A stretch of 44,814 bases of DNA from an uncultured Flavobacteriales bacterium (GTDB taxonomy: Bacteria > Bacteroidota > Bacteroidia > Flavobacteriales_D > Sanyastnellaceae), in NCBI GenBank assembly GCA_905479395.1, contig CAJQMI010000003.1, positions 1-44,814 of the forward strand, written 5' to 3'. This document shows, in pieces, positions 11,817 through 28,803 of the stretch. Position 1 is the stretch's first letter. Every line of letters starts with the position of its first letter. A program made the position numbers and the translations under genes. Under the pieces are notes generated by a model, which saw only the letters and a list, made by a program, of their open reading frames with translations, searched no databases and was not told where the DNA came from.

Positions 11817-13304
11817 GTGGGCAGAGAAAGAAAATTCCGAAAGAACGAAGCACTCATCCTCGATGTTGAAGACATCGCATTTGGAGGAAAAGGCATCGCA
11901 CGAATCACAACAGACAAAGGACCCTTTGTGGTGTTCATCCAAAATGCCTTTCCAGGGCAAAAGGTGGAGGCCAGGGTTGTCAAGTGCAAATCAAAGCACG
12001 CAGAATGCAGGCTCGAAGAGGTGATTCAGCGATCACCCTCAGAAGTTGACCATGGGTTCCAGGAAATCCCCGGAGCACCCTATGCGCGCGTTCCGCTTGA
12101 ATTGCAGCACAAGACCAAGGAAAAGACCGCTCTCGATTTGTATGAGCGCATTGGAGGAGTCGATGACGTTCAATCCGTGTACGAAGGCTTCATTGCCTCG
12201 CCTAAGAATTGGCACTACCGGAACAAAATGGAATATAGCTTTTCGGCCATCGTACACAATCCAAAAACCAAGGAGAAAGAGGACGGTTTTGGTTTTGGTT
12301 TTAAAAAACGCGGGACATGGTGGGCCGTCGAAAACCTCAATGGCGATTCGGGATTGTACGACGCTCAAGTCGAGAATTTCATGCCCACGTTGAGGGGTTG
12401 GTTTGAAGAAACAAACTTGCCCGCATGGCATCCGCCAAAGCGCGAGGGATTCTATCGTTTCTTGGTTGCCAGACGCAGTGAGGCAAATGAGAAGTTACTC
12501 TTCAACTTGGTCACCAGTTCAGATGGATTGGAATCATTTGACCGTCAAGCATTCGTGGAATTACTCAAATCCGCATTTGGCGAACGATTACAAGGTGTGA
12601 TCCATACAATCAATGACGACAAAGGAGATCGCGTAGAAGCGAGGTCAGGCGATTCAGAGCTGGTTTATGGACAAGCTTTCATTACAGAGACCTTGCACGA
12701 GCTCAATTTTGACATTGAGATGTCCAGCTTTTTCCAAACCAATCCAGCTTGCGCCGAACGCCTGTATGCAGAAGTCATCGCGGCGGTGTCGGCTTCGGAT
12801 GATGCCAGCACCGGTTCCAAACCATTCCATACGGGAGAGTATATCATGGACCTCTTCTGCGGCACAGGAACCATTGCACAAATGCTCGCTCGGCACACTG
12901 GAAAAGAAATCATTGGGGTCGACATTGTTGAGCAAGCCATCATCGACGCCCGCAAAAGTGCTAAAAACAACGGCACTGAAAACGTTCAATTCCACGCAGC
13001 TGATGTGGGGAAGTTCCTTCTGGAGTTCCCTGAATACAAGGGCCGAATCAAATCCATTGTACTCGACCCTCCTCGAGCAGGCATCTCACCAAAGACGCTG
13101 AGAAAAGTCATCCGATTGGGCGCAGAACGTCTGGTTTATGTATCCTGTAACCCTGCGACCCAAGCAAGGGACATTGTTACGTTGAGGGAATTCGGATATG
13201 AGCTGAAACGTTTGAAATTGGTGGATCAATTTCCGCATACTGCGCATGTCGAAGCCATCGCCGTTTTTGAAAAGAACTTGAAAGCATCGAACTTAGACGA
13301 ATGA
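11817..13304 (+). CDS. rlmD: 23S rRNA (uracil-5-)-methyltransferase, RlmD/TrmA family, lacking the Fe-S cysteines
   Basis: From GTG 11817 the product has 495 residues. A TRAM-like N-terminal domain (ILDVEDIAFGGKGIAR) leads to a Rossmann methyltransferase. Motifs are DLFCGTGTIAQ (SAM site), VLDPPRAG and YVSCNPATQARD with catalytic Cys444, plus the usual C-terminal HTAHVEAI. It should form 5-methyluridine in 23S rRNA. Where RlmD normally has three or four Cys for a 4Fe-4S cluster, this protein reads GAPYARVPLELQHK, with no Cys. The exact target site (U1939 or U747) cannot be assigned. An in-frame ATG at 11763 is the alternative start. The end overlaps the phosphoribosyltransferase gene by 4 bp. 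Confidence 0.85.
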   Translation: MGRERKFRKNEALILDVEDIAFGGKGIARITTDKGPFVVFIQNAFPGQKVEARVVKCKSKHAECRLEEVIQRSPSEVDHGFQEIPGAPYARVPLELQHKTKEKTALDLYERIGGVDDVQSVYEGFIASPKNWHYRNKMEYSFSAIVHNPKTKEKEDGFGFGFKKRGTWWAVENLNGDSGLYDAQVENFMPTLRGWFEETNLPAWHPPKREGFYRFLVARRSEANEKLLFNLVTSSDGLESFDRQAFVELLKSAFGERLQGVIHTINDDKGDRVEARSGDSELVYGQAFITETLHELNFDIEMSSFFQTNPACAERLYAEVIAAVSASDDASTGSKPFHTGEYIMDLFCGTGTIAQMLARHTGKEIIGVDIVEQAIIDARKSAKNNGTENVQFHAADVGKFLLEFPEYKGRIKSIVLDPPRAGISPKTLRKVIRLGAERLVYVSCNPATQARDIVTLREFGYELKRLKLVDQFPHTAHVEAIAVFEKNLKASNLDE

Positions 13305-26608: not shown

Positions 26609-26682
26609 GACTCCTTAGCTCAGCTGGTTAGAGCATCTCACTTTTAATGAGAGGGTCCTGGGTTCGAGTCCCAGAGGGGTTA
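26609..26682 (+). tRNA. tRNA-Lys (anticodon TTT)
   Basis: A 74-base cloverleaf without encoded CCA. The acceptor stem pairs GACTCCT with AGGGGTT (two G-U pairs), the D arm is GCTCAGCTGGTTAGAGC, and the anticodon stem TCTCA/TGAGA encloses loop CTTTTAA with anticodon TTT. The T arm is CTGGG TTCGAGT CCCAG and the discriminator base is A. Confidence 0.95.
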
Positions 26683-26690
26683 CAAAAAAG

Positions 26691-26717
26691 AAGGGTGTCA
26701 TTGGCACCCTTTTTATT
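26691..26717 (+). terminator. Intrinsic-terminator-like hairpin between tRNA-Lys and tRNA-Leu
   Basis: AAGGGTG (26691-26697) pairs with CACCCTT (26705-26711) around a 7-base loop and is followed by TTTATT. It ends about 5 bases before tRNA-Leu(GAG). It could end transcripts from tRNA-Lys, act as a partial terminator, or mark a processing site. Confidence 0.65.
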
Positions 26718-26722
26718 GCACT

Positions 26723-26806
26723 GCCCAGGTGCTGAAATTGGTAGACAGGCATGGTTGAGGGCCATGTGTCCGTTAGGGCGTGCGGGTTCGAGTCCCGCTC
26801 TGGGCA
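26723..26806 (+). tRNA. tRNA-Leu (anticodon GAG)
   Basis: An 84-base class II tRNA. The acceptor stem pairs GCCCAGG with TCTGGGC, the D arm contains AAATTGGTAGAC typical of Leu, and the anticodon stem CATGG/CCATG encloses loop TTGAGGG with anticodon GAG. A long variable arm and T arm CGGG TTCGAGT CCCG follow. CCA is not encoded and the discriminator is A. Confidence 0.95.
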
Positions 26807-26816
26807 CTTTGCACCT

Positions 26817-26898
26817 ACCCGGGTGGCGAAATTGGTAGACGCGCAGTCCTCAGAAGGCTGTGCCTTCGGGCGTGCTGGTTCGAATCCAGTTCCGGGTA
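26817..26898 (+). tRNA. tRNA-Leu (anticodon CAG)
   Basis: An 82-base class II tRNA 10 bases after the preceding tRNA-Leu. The acceptor stem pairs ACCCGGG with TCCGGGT, and the anticodon stem CAGTC/GGCTG encloses loop CTCAGAA with anticodon CAG. The variable arm contains GTGCCTTCGGGCGT and the T arm TTCGAAT. CCA is not encoded. No terminator separates it from the DAHP synthase gene 125 bases downstream. Confidence 0.93.
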
Positions 26899-27023: not shown

Positions 27024-28166
27024 ATGGCGAAGCAAGCCGGAAACCAAGTGTATCTTGCGACCGTGGTATCCAACAATTCCATCAACGCACAATCCATCAT
27101 AGAGGGCCTTGCTCAAGTGCAGCGACCTCTATTGATCAGTGGTCCTTGTAGCGCAGAGTCAGAACAACAAGTGGTTGGAACTGCATGCGAAATTGCCAAG
27201 CGCGGAGCGCACATTTTACGGGCTGGAATATGGAAACCACGGACCCGCCCCAACGGCTTCGAGGGCAAAGGGGCTGTTGCACTTGAGTGGATGGTGAATG
27301 CGCGAGAGGAATCTGGACTTCCCATTGCCACAGAAGTAGCAAACGCCCAGCATGTAGAAGCCTGCTTAAACGCTGGCATTGATGTCATGTGGATTGGAGC
27401 TCGCACGAGTGTGAGTCCATTTGCTGTCCAAGAAATTGCGGATGCACTGAAAGGCACCAATGTTCCCGTCTTTGTAAAGAACCCAATGCATGCCGACCTT
27501 TCATTGTGGTTAGGCGCTATCGAACGCGTTCGAAACACAGTCGCCGGCCCCGTGTGGGCCGTTCATCGTGGCTTCAGTCAATACGGCCAAAAGGAATACC
27601 GCAATGCCCCCATGTGGGAAATCGCCATTGGTCTTAAAATGGCCCTGCCCGAATTGCCAATCATTTGCGATCCAAGCCACATTGCTGGCAATCGATCCCT
27701 ACTCCTTCCAGTCGCTCAAAAAGCGATGGACTTGGGAATGGAAGGCCTGATGCTCGAAACACATCCCAATCCTCAGGACGCACTTAGTGACGCAAACCAG
27801 CAACTCACTCCAGCTGCCTTTGGTGAATTAATCGACTCTCTTACCATACGCAGCGCTTCAGTTCCTAAGATATCTTCTGCCGATCTCTCCGCCTTGCGAC
27901 TTCAAATGGATTCAATCGATGAGCAAGTCATTGAATTGCTGCACACACGCATGGACCTTGCACGTGAAATTGGCCTTCACAAATGGGAAAATGGAATGAC
28001 CATTCTTCAAATGGAGCGGTGGAAGGAAGTTTTTGACACCCGAGAGAAGTGGGCCGCGCGAGCGGGATTGAGCCCCGAATTCATTTTAAACTTCCTTGAA
28101 CAGGTGCACAAAGAAAGTATTCGAGTGCAAAACGAGGAAATGACCTCGAAAATGAACAGGCCGTAA
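27024..28166 (+). CDS. Bifunctional DAHP synthase / chorismate mutase
   Basis: From ATG 27024 the protein has 380 residues. The N-terminal part (about 20-265) is a DAHP synthase of the short AroA type: SGPCSAES, AGIWKPRTRPNGFEG, EVANAQHVE, VFVKNPM, AVHRGF and DPSHIAGN are visible. The C-terminal 95 residues are an all-helical AroQ-type chorismate mutase (MDSIDEQVIELLHTRMDLA, then EIGLHKWENG). The fusion couples the first committed shikimate step with the branch to phenylalanine and tyrosine; in such fusions the mutase domain can mediate feedback control. The frame is open upstream across the tRNA-Leu genes, but those residues are not protein-coding. A strong terminator follows the gene. Confidence 0.92.
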   Translation: MAKQAGNQVYLATVVSNNSINAQSIIEGLAQVQRPLLISGPCSAESEQQVVGTACEIAKRGAHILRAGIWKPRTRPNGFEGKGAVALEWMVNAREESGLPIATEVANAQHVEACLNAGIDVMWIGARTSVSPFAVQEIADALKGTNVPVFVKNPMHADLSLWLGAIERVRNTVAGPVWAVHRGFSQYGQKEYRNAPMWEIAIGLKMALPELPIICDPSHIAGNRSLLLPVAQKAMDLGMEGLMLETHPNPQDALSDANQQLTPAAFGELIDSLTIRSASVPKISSADLSALRLQMDSIDEQVIELLHTRMDLAREIGLHKWENGMTILQMERWKEVFDTREKWAARAGLSPEFILNFLEQVHKESIRVQNEEMTSKMNRP

Positions 28167-28186
28167 CTGACTGATAGTTAGTTATT

Positions 28187-28209
28187 TGCGATTTTTATCG
28201 CATTTTTTT
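28187..28209 (+). terminator. Intrinsic terminator after the DAHP synthase gene
   Basis: TGCGAT (28187-28192) pairs with ATCGCA (28197-28202) around TTTT and is followed by seven T. It lies 20 bases after the stop codon. Confidence 0.85.
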
Positions 28210-28347
28210 GTAATATTTTGAAACTAAAATTCAACTCCCTACGTAAAGGGAGATGGTTTTGGTTTTGCCACGCTCGATATGAGCGTTTATGAATCAGGCG
28301 ATTTGGTGAGAAGGGGTCCCTCAACGGAGGGGCCCCTTTGATTTTTT
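28210..28347 (+). ncRNA. Candidate small structured RNA between two terminators
   Basis: Between the terminator of the DAHP synthase gene and a second plus-strand terminator lie about 100 bases with no reading frame. They can fold into CTCCCT/AGGGAG (28235-28240, 28247-28252) and ACGCTC/GAGCGT (28270-28275, 28281-28286), joined by a G/T-rich linker, and then run into the strong terminator hairpin. A second terminator facing the same way suggests a second transcript. The upstream TAATATTTTG (28211-28220) is only a loose promoter match. I do not recognise 6S, SRP, tmRNA or RNase P signatures. It may instead be an extended 3' UTR. Confidence 0.3.
28311..28347 (+). terminator. Strong intrinsic terminator, 12-bp stem
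   Basis: AAGGGGTCCCTC pairs with GAGGGGCCCCTT (one G-T pair) around loop AACG, followed by TGATTTTTT. The T-run lies on the right, so it acts on plus-strand transcripts, although the next gene on the right is on the minus strand. Confidence 0.8.
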
Positions 28348-28395
28348 AAGGACTTTTTTGAAAGGGCACTGGTGGCCAAAAGTGCATAGGAGTGC

Positions 28396-28803
28396 TCAGG
28401 AGCGCTTATCAATTCTAGTCATCATGTGCAACCACATCGACCGACTCAGTCTCGCTATCAGCGGCAACAATGCAATTAGAAGCGAAATTCCTGTTGTCAA
28501 GAACAGCGTCACATCTTCGAAAAAGGAAAATTGAAGCAGCCCCCACCAATCAAAACACACCAAAGCAACCAACACTGCCACCCACAAAGCAACAGTCAAT
28601 CCATAAGACACGTAAGCTGCTCCAAAGTAAAATCCTGGTTCTCTCAAGAAATCTTCCCCGCAAACAGGACATGCATTTGGCATGGACGTGATGTGCTTCC
28701 AGTGGTAGGCTTTGGGTGATGAGAAAATTTGACCTTCACGGCACCTTGGACATTGCGAATGAATCATCGCAGCCAGTCCCGTTTTTCTTTTCTTCGACCT
28801 CAT
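28396..28803 (-). CDS. DUF983 zinc-ribbon membrane protein
   Basis: The 135-residue product has two CxxC pairs, CPRCREGQIF and CPVCGEDF, which should bind zinc near the N-terminus. The DUF983 signature REPGFYFGAAYVSYGL follows, leading into two membrane segments (about 65-85 and 95-115). The family is widespread in Bacteroidota and Alphaproteobacteria and has no firm function. Its start overlaps the ABC exporter stop codon by 4 bp, so it belongs to that transcript, running from purB. Confidence 0.9.
   Translation of the reverse strand: MRSKKRKTGLAAMIHSQCPRCREGQIFSSPKAYHWKHITSMPNACPVCGEDFLREPGFYFGAAYVSYGLTVALWVAVLVALVCFDWWGLLQFSFFEDVTLFLTTGISLLIALLPLIARLSRSMWLHMMTRIDKRS

Follow-up and report, generated by a model that had tools for sequence, protein, structure and literature searches.

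A conserved, previously undescribed small-RNA gene with a predicted ECF-type promoter downstream of DAHP synthase in an uncultured Flavobacteriales bacterium

What lies between two terminators of the same direction when no gene of that direction separates them? The question is raised by a short part of the window analysed here, a stretch of 44,814 nucleotides from contig C3 of a 2.29-Mb, 144-contig Flavobacteriales genome. An earlier note had claimed two such terminators with two extra short hairpins between them, and had read this layout as a small RNA gene extending over 28210-28347. Both terminators are present (28187-28209 and 28310-28347), as are both hairpins (28235-28252 and 28270-28286). 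The space is also free of plus-strand genes, as the note had stated: the upstream plus-strand gene, encoding a DAHP synthase/chorismate mutase fusion (PF00793 + PF01817), has its frame end at 28166, and the next gene, encoding a DUF983 protein (PF06170), is convergent on the minus strand (28803 to 28396). The plus strand of the segment 28210-28347, between these two genes, holds a small-RNA gene that is real, conserved and, in the literature searched, undescribed; judging from its sequence features, we are almost certain that a small RNA gene is what the segment represents. As to the surroundings, three tRNA genes lie at 26609-26898, and the DAHP synthase frame, when begun at its mechanical start (26751), runs over two of them, so that the true start is probably located further downstream.

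The segment and its predicted RNA

The first terminator consists of a stem at 28187-28202 and a T-run at 28203-28209, and probably ends the DAHP synthase mRNA. Its small hairpin varies among relatives and is not conserved (alignment judged by eye), and what recurs near this site, equally by eye, is the T-run together with an upstream CTG-N4/5-CAG hairpin. The second terminator has a 13-pair stem (28310-28339) and six T residues at 28342-28347. The small-RNA layout proposed for the segment held for the gene itself, but the hairpin at 28235-28252 turned out to be promoter DNA lying outside the RNA; therefore, the predicted transcript lies inside 28210-28347 without filling it and comprises only ~95 bases (28253-28347). 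The -10 box would place the transcription start at 28251-28255. The features of the locus are as follows.

28187-28209 (+): first terminator-like site, hairpin and T-run, probable end of the DAHP synthase mRNA
28219-28225 (+): -35 box TGAAACT of the predicted ECF-sigma promoter; G, A, A and C of GNAAC invariant in 51/51 distinct copies
28242-28245 (+): -10 box CGTA, 16 bases past the -35 heptamer; GTA equidistant in 50/51
28253-28347 (+): predicted small RNA of ~95 bases, its start placed from the -10 box; 96% identity in the genus (over 28255-28347)
28255-28264 (+): conserved 5' end GGTTTTGGTT, put forward as the seed for pairing; invariant in 20 BLAST-derived copies
28270-28286 (+): covarying hairpin ACGCTC-GATAT-GAGCGT; 6/6 pairs changed on both sides, 84.5% of cells paired
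28295-28307 (+): conserved stretch CAGGCGATTTGGT, a further possible site of pairing or protein contact; invariant in 20 BLAST-derived copies
28310-28347 (+): intrinsic terminator, AACG tetraloop stem and T-run; 7/12 counted pairs double-changed, 95.7% of cells paired

From 5' to 3' the RNA thus begins with conserved bases (GGUUUUGGUU), and the covarying hairpin that follows is separated from the terminator, which also covaries, by a second conserved stretch (CAGGCGAUUUGGU). Folding of the 181-base segment gave a z of -5.6 relative to shuffled sequences, none of 200 shuffles being as good. Covariation was scored on the hairpin 28270-28286 and the terminator in 43 distinct RNAs against 500 shuffles, in a set that kept 11 g10-type rows (with another hairpin) and two g9 rows shifted by the aligner (L021, L042), all of them counted as unpaired cells or gaps. 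Paired cells reached 92.3% (78.3 in shuffles) and the covariation score 0.447 (0.207 in shuffles). Covariation across relatives had been proposed in the earlier note as a check, and both structures do covary, with changes on both sides at 13 of the 18 pairs compared with 8.4 in shuffles. The exception was the number of further pair types (26), which did not rise above shuffles (27.8); the other four of the five measures exceeded all 500 shuffles, and sliding of the pairing partners abolished the signal. The terminator loop reads AACG in 42/43 distinct RNAs and AATG in the remaining one. Since the 43 copies were required to carry GGTTTTGGTT and CAGGCGATTTGGT, the invariance of both strings in that set is by construction, and the claim that they are invariant rests instead on the 20 BLAST-derived copies. 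RNAalifold favours pairing of GGUUU-UGGUUU with GAAUCAGGC around the hairpin; as most of the letters involved are invariant, the alignment speaks neither for nor against this pairing. GGUUUUGGUUU is able to pair inside the RNA with GAAUCAGGC and would be hidden by such a pairing.

Conservation is concentrated on the RNA and its -10 box. Among 17 genus sequences the mean pairwise identity is 0.96 over the RNA (28255-28347) and 1.00 over the -10 box, 0.80 over the -35 box, 0.61 in the promoter spacer, 0.56 in the upstream linker, 0.73 in the DAHP synthase 3' coding end and 0.41 in the bases past the terminator. In the 20-sequence alignment hardly a base varies from GGTTTTGGTT to the terminator, and the surroundings drift. 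BLAST with 28210-28347 retrieved clear copies from the genus itself as well as from g13, g9, g3 and g10, with matches in 29/60 genomes at E<=0.1, the weakest of which probably arose by chance. Those in G036 and G040 were inspected and rejected as homologues, no CAGGCGATTTGGT following them, and the matches in G042, G050, G055 and G056 were left out.

A covariance model built from 19 sequences (R1) matched 80/114 family genomes at E<=0.1 and 52/114 at E<=1e-10, the latter comprising 19/22 genomes of the genus, one of g13, two of g9, seven of g14, nine of g3 and 14 of g10; the genus genomes left unmatched are G007 (95% complete) and G016 and G021 (63-64% complete). Most copies have DAHP synthase on one side and DUF983 on the other. 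Among 399 genomes of the order, no R1 match outside the family was better than E 0.001, so that this form of the RNA appears confined to the family as far as the model sees. The outside matches at E 0.001-0.05, several of which cover the terminator only, were taken as chance; one of them (L071) was read and contains neither conserved string. Pattern matches in public genomes amounted to 52 stretches, all from metagenome-assembled genomes (MAG) and mostly labelled Flavobacteriales, Bacteroidetes or Crocinitomicaceae, with single labels of Bacteroidia, 'bacterium', Chryseobacterium gleum and Rhodopirellula. A phage or viral origin was discarded, the RNA having no match in phages or viral contigs. 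Two contigs of one assembly (G001:C28:1-126 and G001:C29:1-127) both begin inside the RNA gene, and the conserved sequence may for this reason break assembly.

The predicted promoter and the ECF sigma factors

In front of the RNA the window carries TGAAACT-N16-CGTA, an arrangement in keeping with ECF promoters: AAC at -35 with CGT at -10 is given as the general ECF pattern in PMC4153023, citing Helmann 2002. The conservation of this element was assessed in 51 distinct copies, gathered through the RNA strings GGTTTTGGTT and CAGGCGATTTGGT and not through the promoter, with the bases preceding the RNA aligned on AAC. G at -2 and AAC occur in every copy (51/51). GTA sits at a fixed distance in all copies except L020 (g13), which has CGTT one base nearer to the -35 box. 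The base preceding GTA is C in 31, G in 12 and A in 8 of the 51, the full CGTA thus not being universal, and GT is found 11-13 bases 5' of GGTTTTGG throughout. Within the 16-base spacer only one A stands out (48/51), information otherwise being low (0.04-0.67 bits). Further upstream, 38-43 of the 51 copies have T at the positions from -16 to -13 relative to AAC, and the T-run closing the first terminator recurs ~10 bases 5' of the -35 box; this T-run (28203-28209) may double as an upstream promoter element.

Because GNAAC and GTA are fixed while the spacer drifts, we read this region as a two-box promoter and not as a hairpin. A stem at 28220-28266, with the hairpin 28235-28252 as its inner part, coincides with the two boxes and was rejected as belonging to the RNA: only 2/19 pairs changed on both sides in 16 genus sequences (2.1 in shuffles) and 73.0% of cells were paired vs 71.3 in shuffles, a value reached by 3/500 of them, the cells with double changes being matched by 11/500 shuffles and the covariation score by 27/500. 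Relatedness alone can explain this slight excess. The pattern is not enriched in the genome of the window, with 18 matches vs 35 for its reversed control. From the arrangement and constancy of the two boxes, we nonetheless consider it highly probable that the RNA gene has an ECF-type promoter of its own. A comparable CGT box at -10 (motif SM6), ascribed to sigma-ECF, precedes type IX secretion (T9SS) genes in Flavobacterium psychrophilum (PMC9723704). The likeness lies in this box and its attribution to ECF sigma factors; SM6 promoters differ in being reported for protein genes (T9SS and others), and the text of that article available to us states no -35 AAC box.

As to the sigma factor itself, the same genome contains seven ECF-type genes with a Sigma70_r4_2 domain (PF08281), and TGNAAC-N16-19-CGT is absent within 400 bases upstream of all seven open frames. 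Three of them (L162, L164, L168) are followed by the gene of a possible anti-sigma factor, as suggested by position, and Pfam and NCBIfam assigned no family to two of these three encoded proteins. The gene after L164 (L164:1701-3068) encodes a PKD domain and, below threshold, matches T9SS sorting domains; its product is possibly an unusual anti-sigma partner. Work on the ECF sigma factors of Bacteroidota and their anti-sigma partners is under way, and Bacteroides ECF21 factors have membrane-spanning anti-sigma partners, according to PMC13088901.

Proposed mode of action and candidate targets

The conservation, the hairpins, the terminator and the two-box promoter come from the sequence itself; the identity of the sigma factor, the transcription, the pairing and the targets are what we infer in the following mechanism. 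Stress on the envelope or surface would release an ECF sigma factor, which would start transcription at ~28251-28255 from TGAAACT-N16-CGTA, and the strong terminator at 28310-28347 would end RNA synthesis. The 5' end GGUUUUGGUU, perhaps also CAGGCGAUUUGGU, would then pair with A/C-rich sequence just 5' of the start codons of mRNAs for membrane or secreted proteins, whose translation would be blocked, as with RybB and MicA. As a whole, the explanation that the locus is a stand-alone, ECF-driven gene of a trans-acting small regulatory RNA of ~95 bases seems to us reasonably probable, and its more specific part, repression of envelope or surface proteins by base pairing, is put forward tentatively.

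Targets were sought as AACCAAAAYC up to 15 bases 5' of ATG in 22 genus genomes. The motif is not enriched in these, with 190 matches vs 207 for the reversed 10-mer followed by ATG, which is a fairer control than the wholly reversed pattern (102 matches); in the genome of the window the motif alone occurs 28 times vs 44 for the control. Two gene starts are nonetheless suggestive as candidate targets, the site being found again at orthologous genes. Rhodopsin genes (PF01036) carry AACCAAAACC-CAAACA[C/A]-ATG in 13/18 genus copies, which places 10 bases exactly complementary to the 5' end of the RNA at 7 bases before the ATG; the site is absent in the other five, one of which has just 15 bases of leader in view, and the exact site is found in 0/7 g3 rhodopsins, these counts leaving out five further loci (g10, g37) that were unreadable. 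A secreted-protein gene shows AACCAAAACC-[A/T]AATCAA-ATG in the genome of the window and in 10 relatives, which were chosen for carrying the site and hence give no denominator. The leader bases flanking both candidate sites are likewise conserved. In duplex energy with the first 18 bases of the RNA, the secreted-protein start ranked 8th and the rhodopsin start 13th of 111 gene starts, a PPIase start being 6th.

Feedback on an ECF gene (L163) through the CAGGCGAUUUGGU stretch was also considered, the L163 leader giving the best duplex energy of the 111 gene starts with this stretch (-21.8), and was rejected: among 29 leaders read from 30 loci, only four retain strong pairing (L297 and L298, -21.8; L304, -18.4; L299, -17.9), and the other 25, a few with a doubtful start codon, range from -8.1 to -15.5. 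Two separate observations concern the leaders and the complementary sequence. Rhodopsin leaders L267-L277 share a TCAGGACACG element ending ~12 bases 5' of AACCAAAACC, and a related CACAGGAC element occurs in g3 rhodopsin leaders. On the minus strand of the window, a 151-codon open stretch contains AACCAAAACC, the sequence complementary to the 5' end of the RNA, twice in overlap (12285-12300).

Weaker R1 matches in g4, g5, g8, g11 and g37, which we group as class II (E 4e-7 to 3e-4 in those read), bear on how the RNA would act. In eight of 12 class II sequences TGNAAC is followed, 15-16 bases past the heptamer, by a [C]GT box, the four from g37 have a degenerate CACAATT, and all 12 show a TTTTGGTT stretch 5' of a strong terminator, their kinship being less certain because R1 itself contains the TTTTGGTT motif. 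A small RNA acting through protein binding, as sponge or scaffold and not by mRNA pairing, would have its invariant stretches as protein sites. UUUGGU does appear near the 5' end, again 5' of the terminator and also before the terminator in the distant class II, and complementary sites near start codons are not enriched. However, the recurrence in class II is partly by construction, the search model containing the element, and the conservation of the complement before the rhodopsin start in 13/18 genus genes speaks against protein binding as the mode of action, which we regard as unlikely.

Neighbourhood, related RNAs and known systems

The position of the RNA behind DAHP synthase suggests another origin, namely release of the small RNA from the 3'-UTR of the DAHP synthase transcript, which would couple it to aromatic amino acid synthesis. 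This position is shared by the genus, g3, g9, g13 and g14, and the CTG-CAG hairpin upstream would fit such an origin. The neighbours of eight class I loci beyond the window were examined with Pfam and BLASTP. DAHP synthase/chorismate mutase lies upstream by Pfam in five of them (L072, L076 (g14), L077, L080 (g3) and L020 (g13)), and in a sixth, L028 (g9), the DAHP synthase end was seen via alignment (L021). On the other hand, in the g10 loci the gene preceding the RNA, in place of DAHP synthase, is a minus-strand APS-kinase gene (L082:2067-2519 (-) and L084:2183-2662 (-)), which argues against processing from that transcript. Downstream, DUF983 is identified by Pfam in L072, L076, L077 and L028 and by 51% identity in L082, and L084 has the ABC transporter that is the window's next gene (61%); one or the other is thus kept in 6/8 loci, L020 having another gene, for a secreted protein, and the downstream side of L080 being unread.

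Related RNAs at other loci bear on the same point. The g3 paralogues L052 and L053 retain promoter, 5' end (GGTTTTGGTT in L052, GGTTTTGGT in L053) and terminator, with a diverged middle that includes the CAGGCGATTTGGT stretch; L053 adjoins a gene for a PHB-depolymerase-like esterase, and L052 one for a similar protein (by eye). A second small-RNA-like gene in the genome of the window (L150, G000:C74:28063 onward, +) adjoins ddl and is built from TGTAACC-N15-CGTA, a hairpin, a conserved AACAGTTTA-TTGTTTT stretch and a terminator, and in g3 (L055) the ddl-linked RNA forms two tandem copies between ruvC and ddl. The presence of L052, L053 and the ddl-linked RNA at loci without an adjoining DAHP synthase, together with the two-box promoter in front of the RNA, makes a 3'-UTR origin improbable. 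As a side observation, partial matches at the g10 loci L058, L059, L060 and L061 share a GATGAGGT[A/T]GATGTGGTGAGAA stretch 5' of a terminator, possibly a further RNA family.

A back-up terminator for DAHP synthase, or one common to the two convergent genes, without RNA function, would suit the gene arrangement and the strength of the terminator, but the 55 bases preceding the terminator hairpin match the whole RNA in conservation (0.96) and a conserved promoter stands in front of them, which makes this reading very improbable. Hardly credible is a leader-peptide element at 28289-28309 (ATG AAT CAG GCG ATT TGG TGA, MNQAIW), a Trp-ending micro-ORF beside an aromatic pathway gene whose frame does exist in the window: among 20 distinct sequence contexts, which hold no conserved start codon within the RNA, ATG is kept in only 8 and the stop TGA in 12 while the RNA letters are fixed, and no same-strand gene follows for an attenuator to control.

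A stand-alone small RNA gene thus being the preferred reading, its relation to described RNAs can be considered. The earlier note had also suggested a search against known RNA families, and none matches the segment: with Rfam 15 (4227 families), only three tRNAs scored above the gathering score in the whole window. Sub-threshold overlaps in 28100-28450 included minus-strand CRISPR-DR63 (21.5 bits against a required 37), ctRNA_p42d (19.6 against 50) and STnc100 (17.3 against 47). 6S-Flavo RNA (RF01685), likewise a structured RNA (108 model positions), was rejected, its model remaining unmatched in the window and in its genome at E<=10, and so was Flavo-1 RNA (RF01705), whose covariance model has no match in the window. 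Flavo-1 is, like the RNA proposed here, a small RNA of Bacteroidota. Among ten representative loci the only gathering-score match was one Flavo-1 copy (47.2 bits) at L069:3305-3380 (-), convergent with and directly beside a class II relative. Among the matches listed in the literature searched, the coverage of which was partial, we found no description of the window RNA, nor any small RNA placed under a Bacteroidota ECF sigma factor. A compact conserved RNA with a recognisable promoter makes such a small RNA directly testable, and the covariance model can be used to seek the family in cultured relatives.

RybB, MicA and MicL are sigma-E dependent small RNAs of enterobacteria, in which RybB and MicA block translation of mRNAs for membrane or secreted proteins; the sigma-E response of Proteobacteria comprises a protein arm and an RNA arm. 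Two genes of the build described here were found in the genome of the window, beside DAHP synthase and beside ddl. It is tempting to speculate, although we think it somewhat unlikely, that the RNA described here is the founding member of an ECF-sigma small-RNA set in Flavobacteriales, which would form the RNA arm of the Bacteroidota envelope-stress response and silence membrane proteins made in abundance, the light-driven rhodopsin among them, via the GGUUUUGGUU seed, the RybB/MicA solution having been reached independently. The window RNA differs from RybB, MicA and MicL in belonging to another phylum and in showing no match to a sequence family. It resembles them in its alternative (ECF) sigma promoter, short transcript and intrinsic terminator, as predicted here from the DNA, in the envelope-protein mRNAs proposed as targets and, for RybB, in a conserved 5' end proposed as the pairing region, so that a functional analogy to RybB and MicA appears reasonable.
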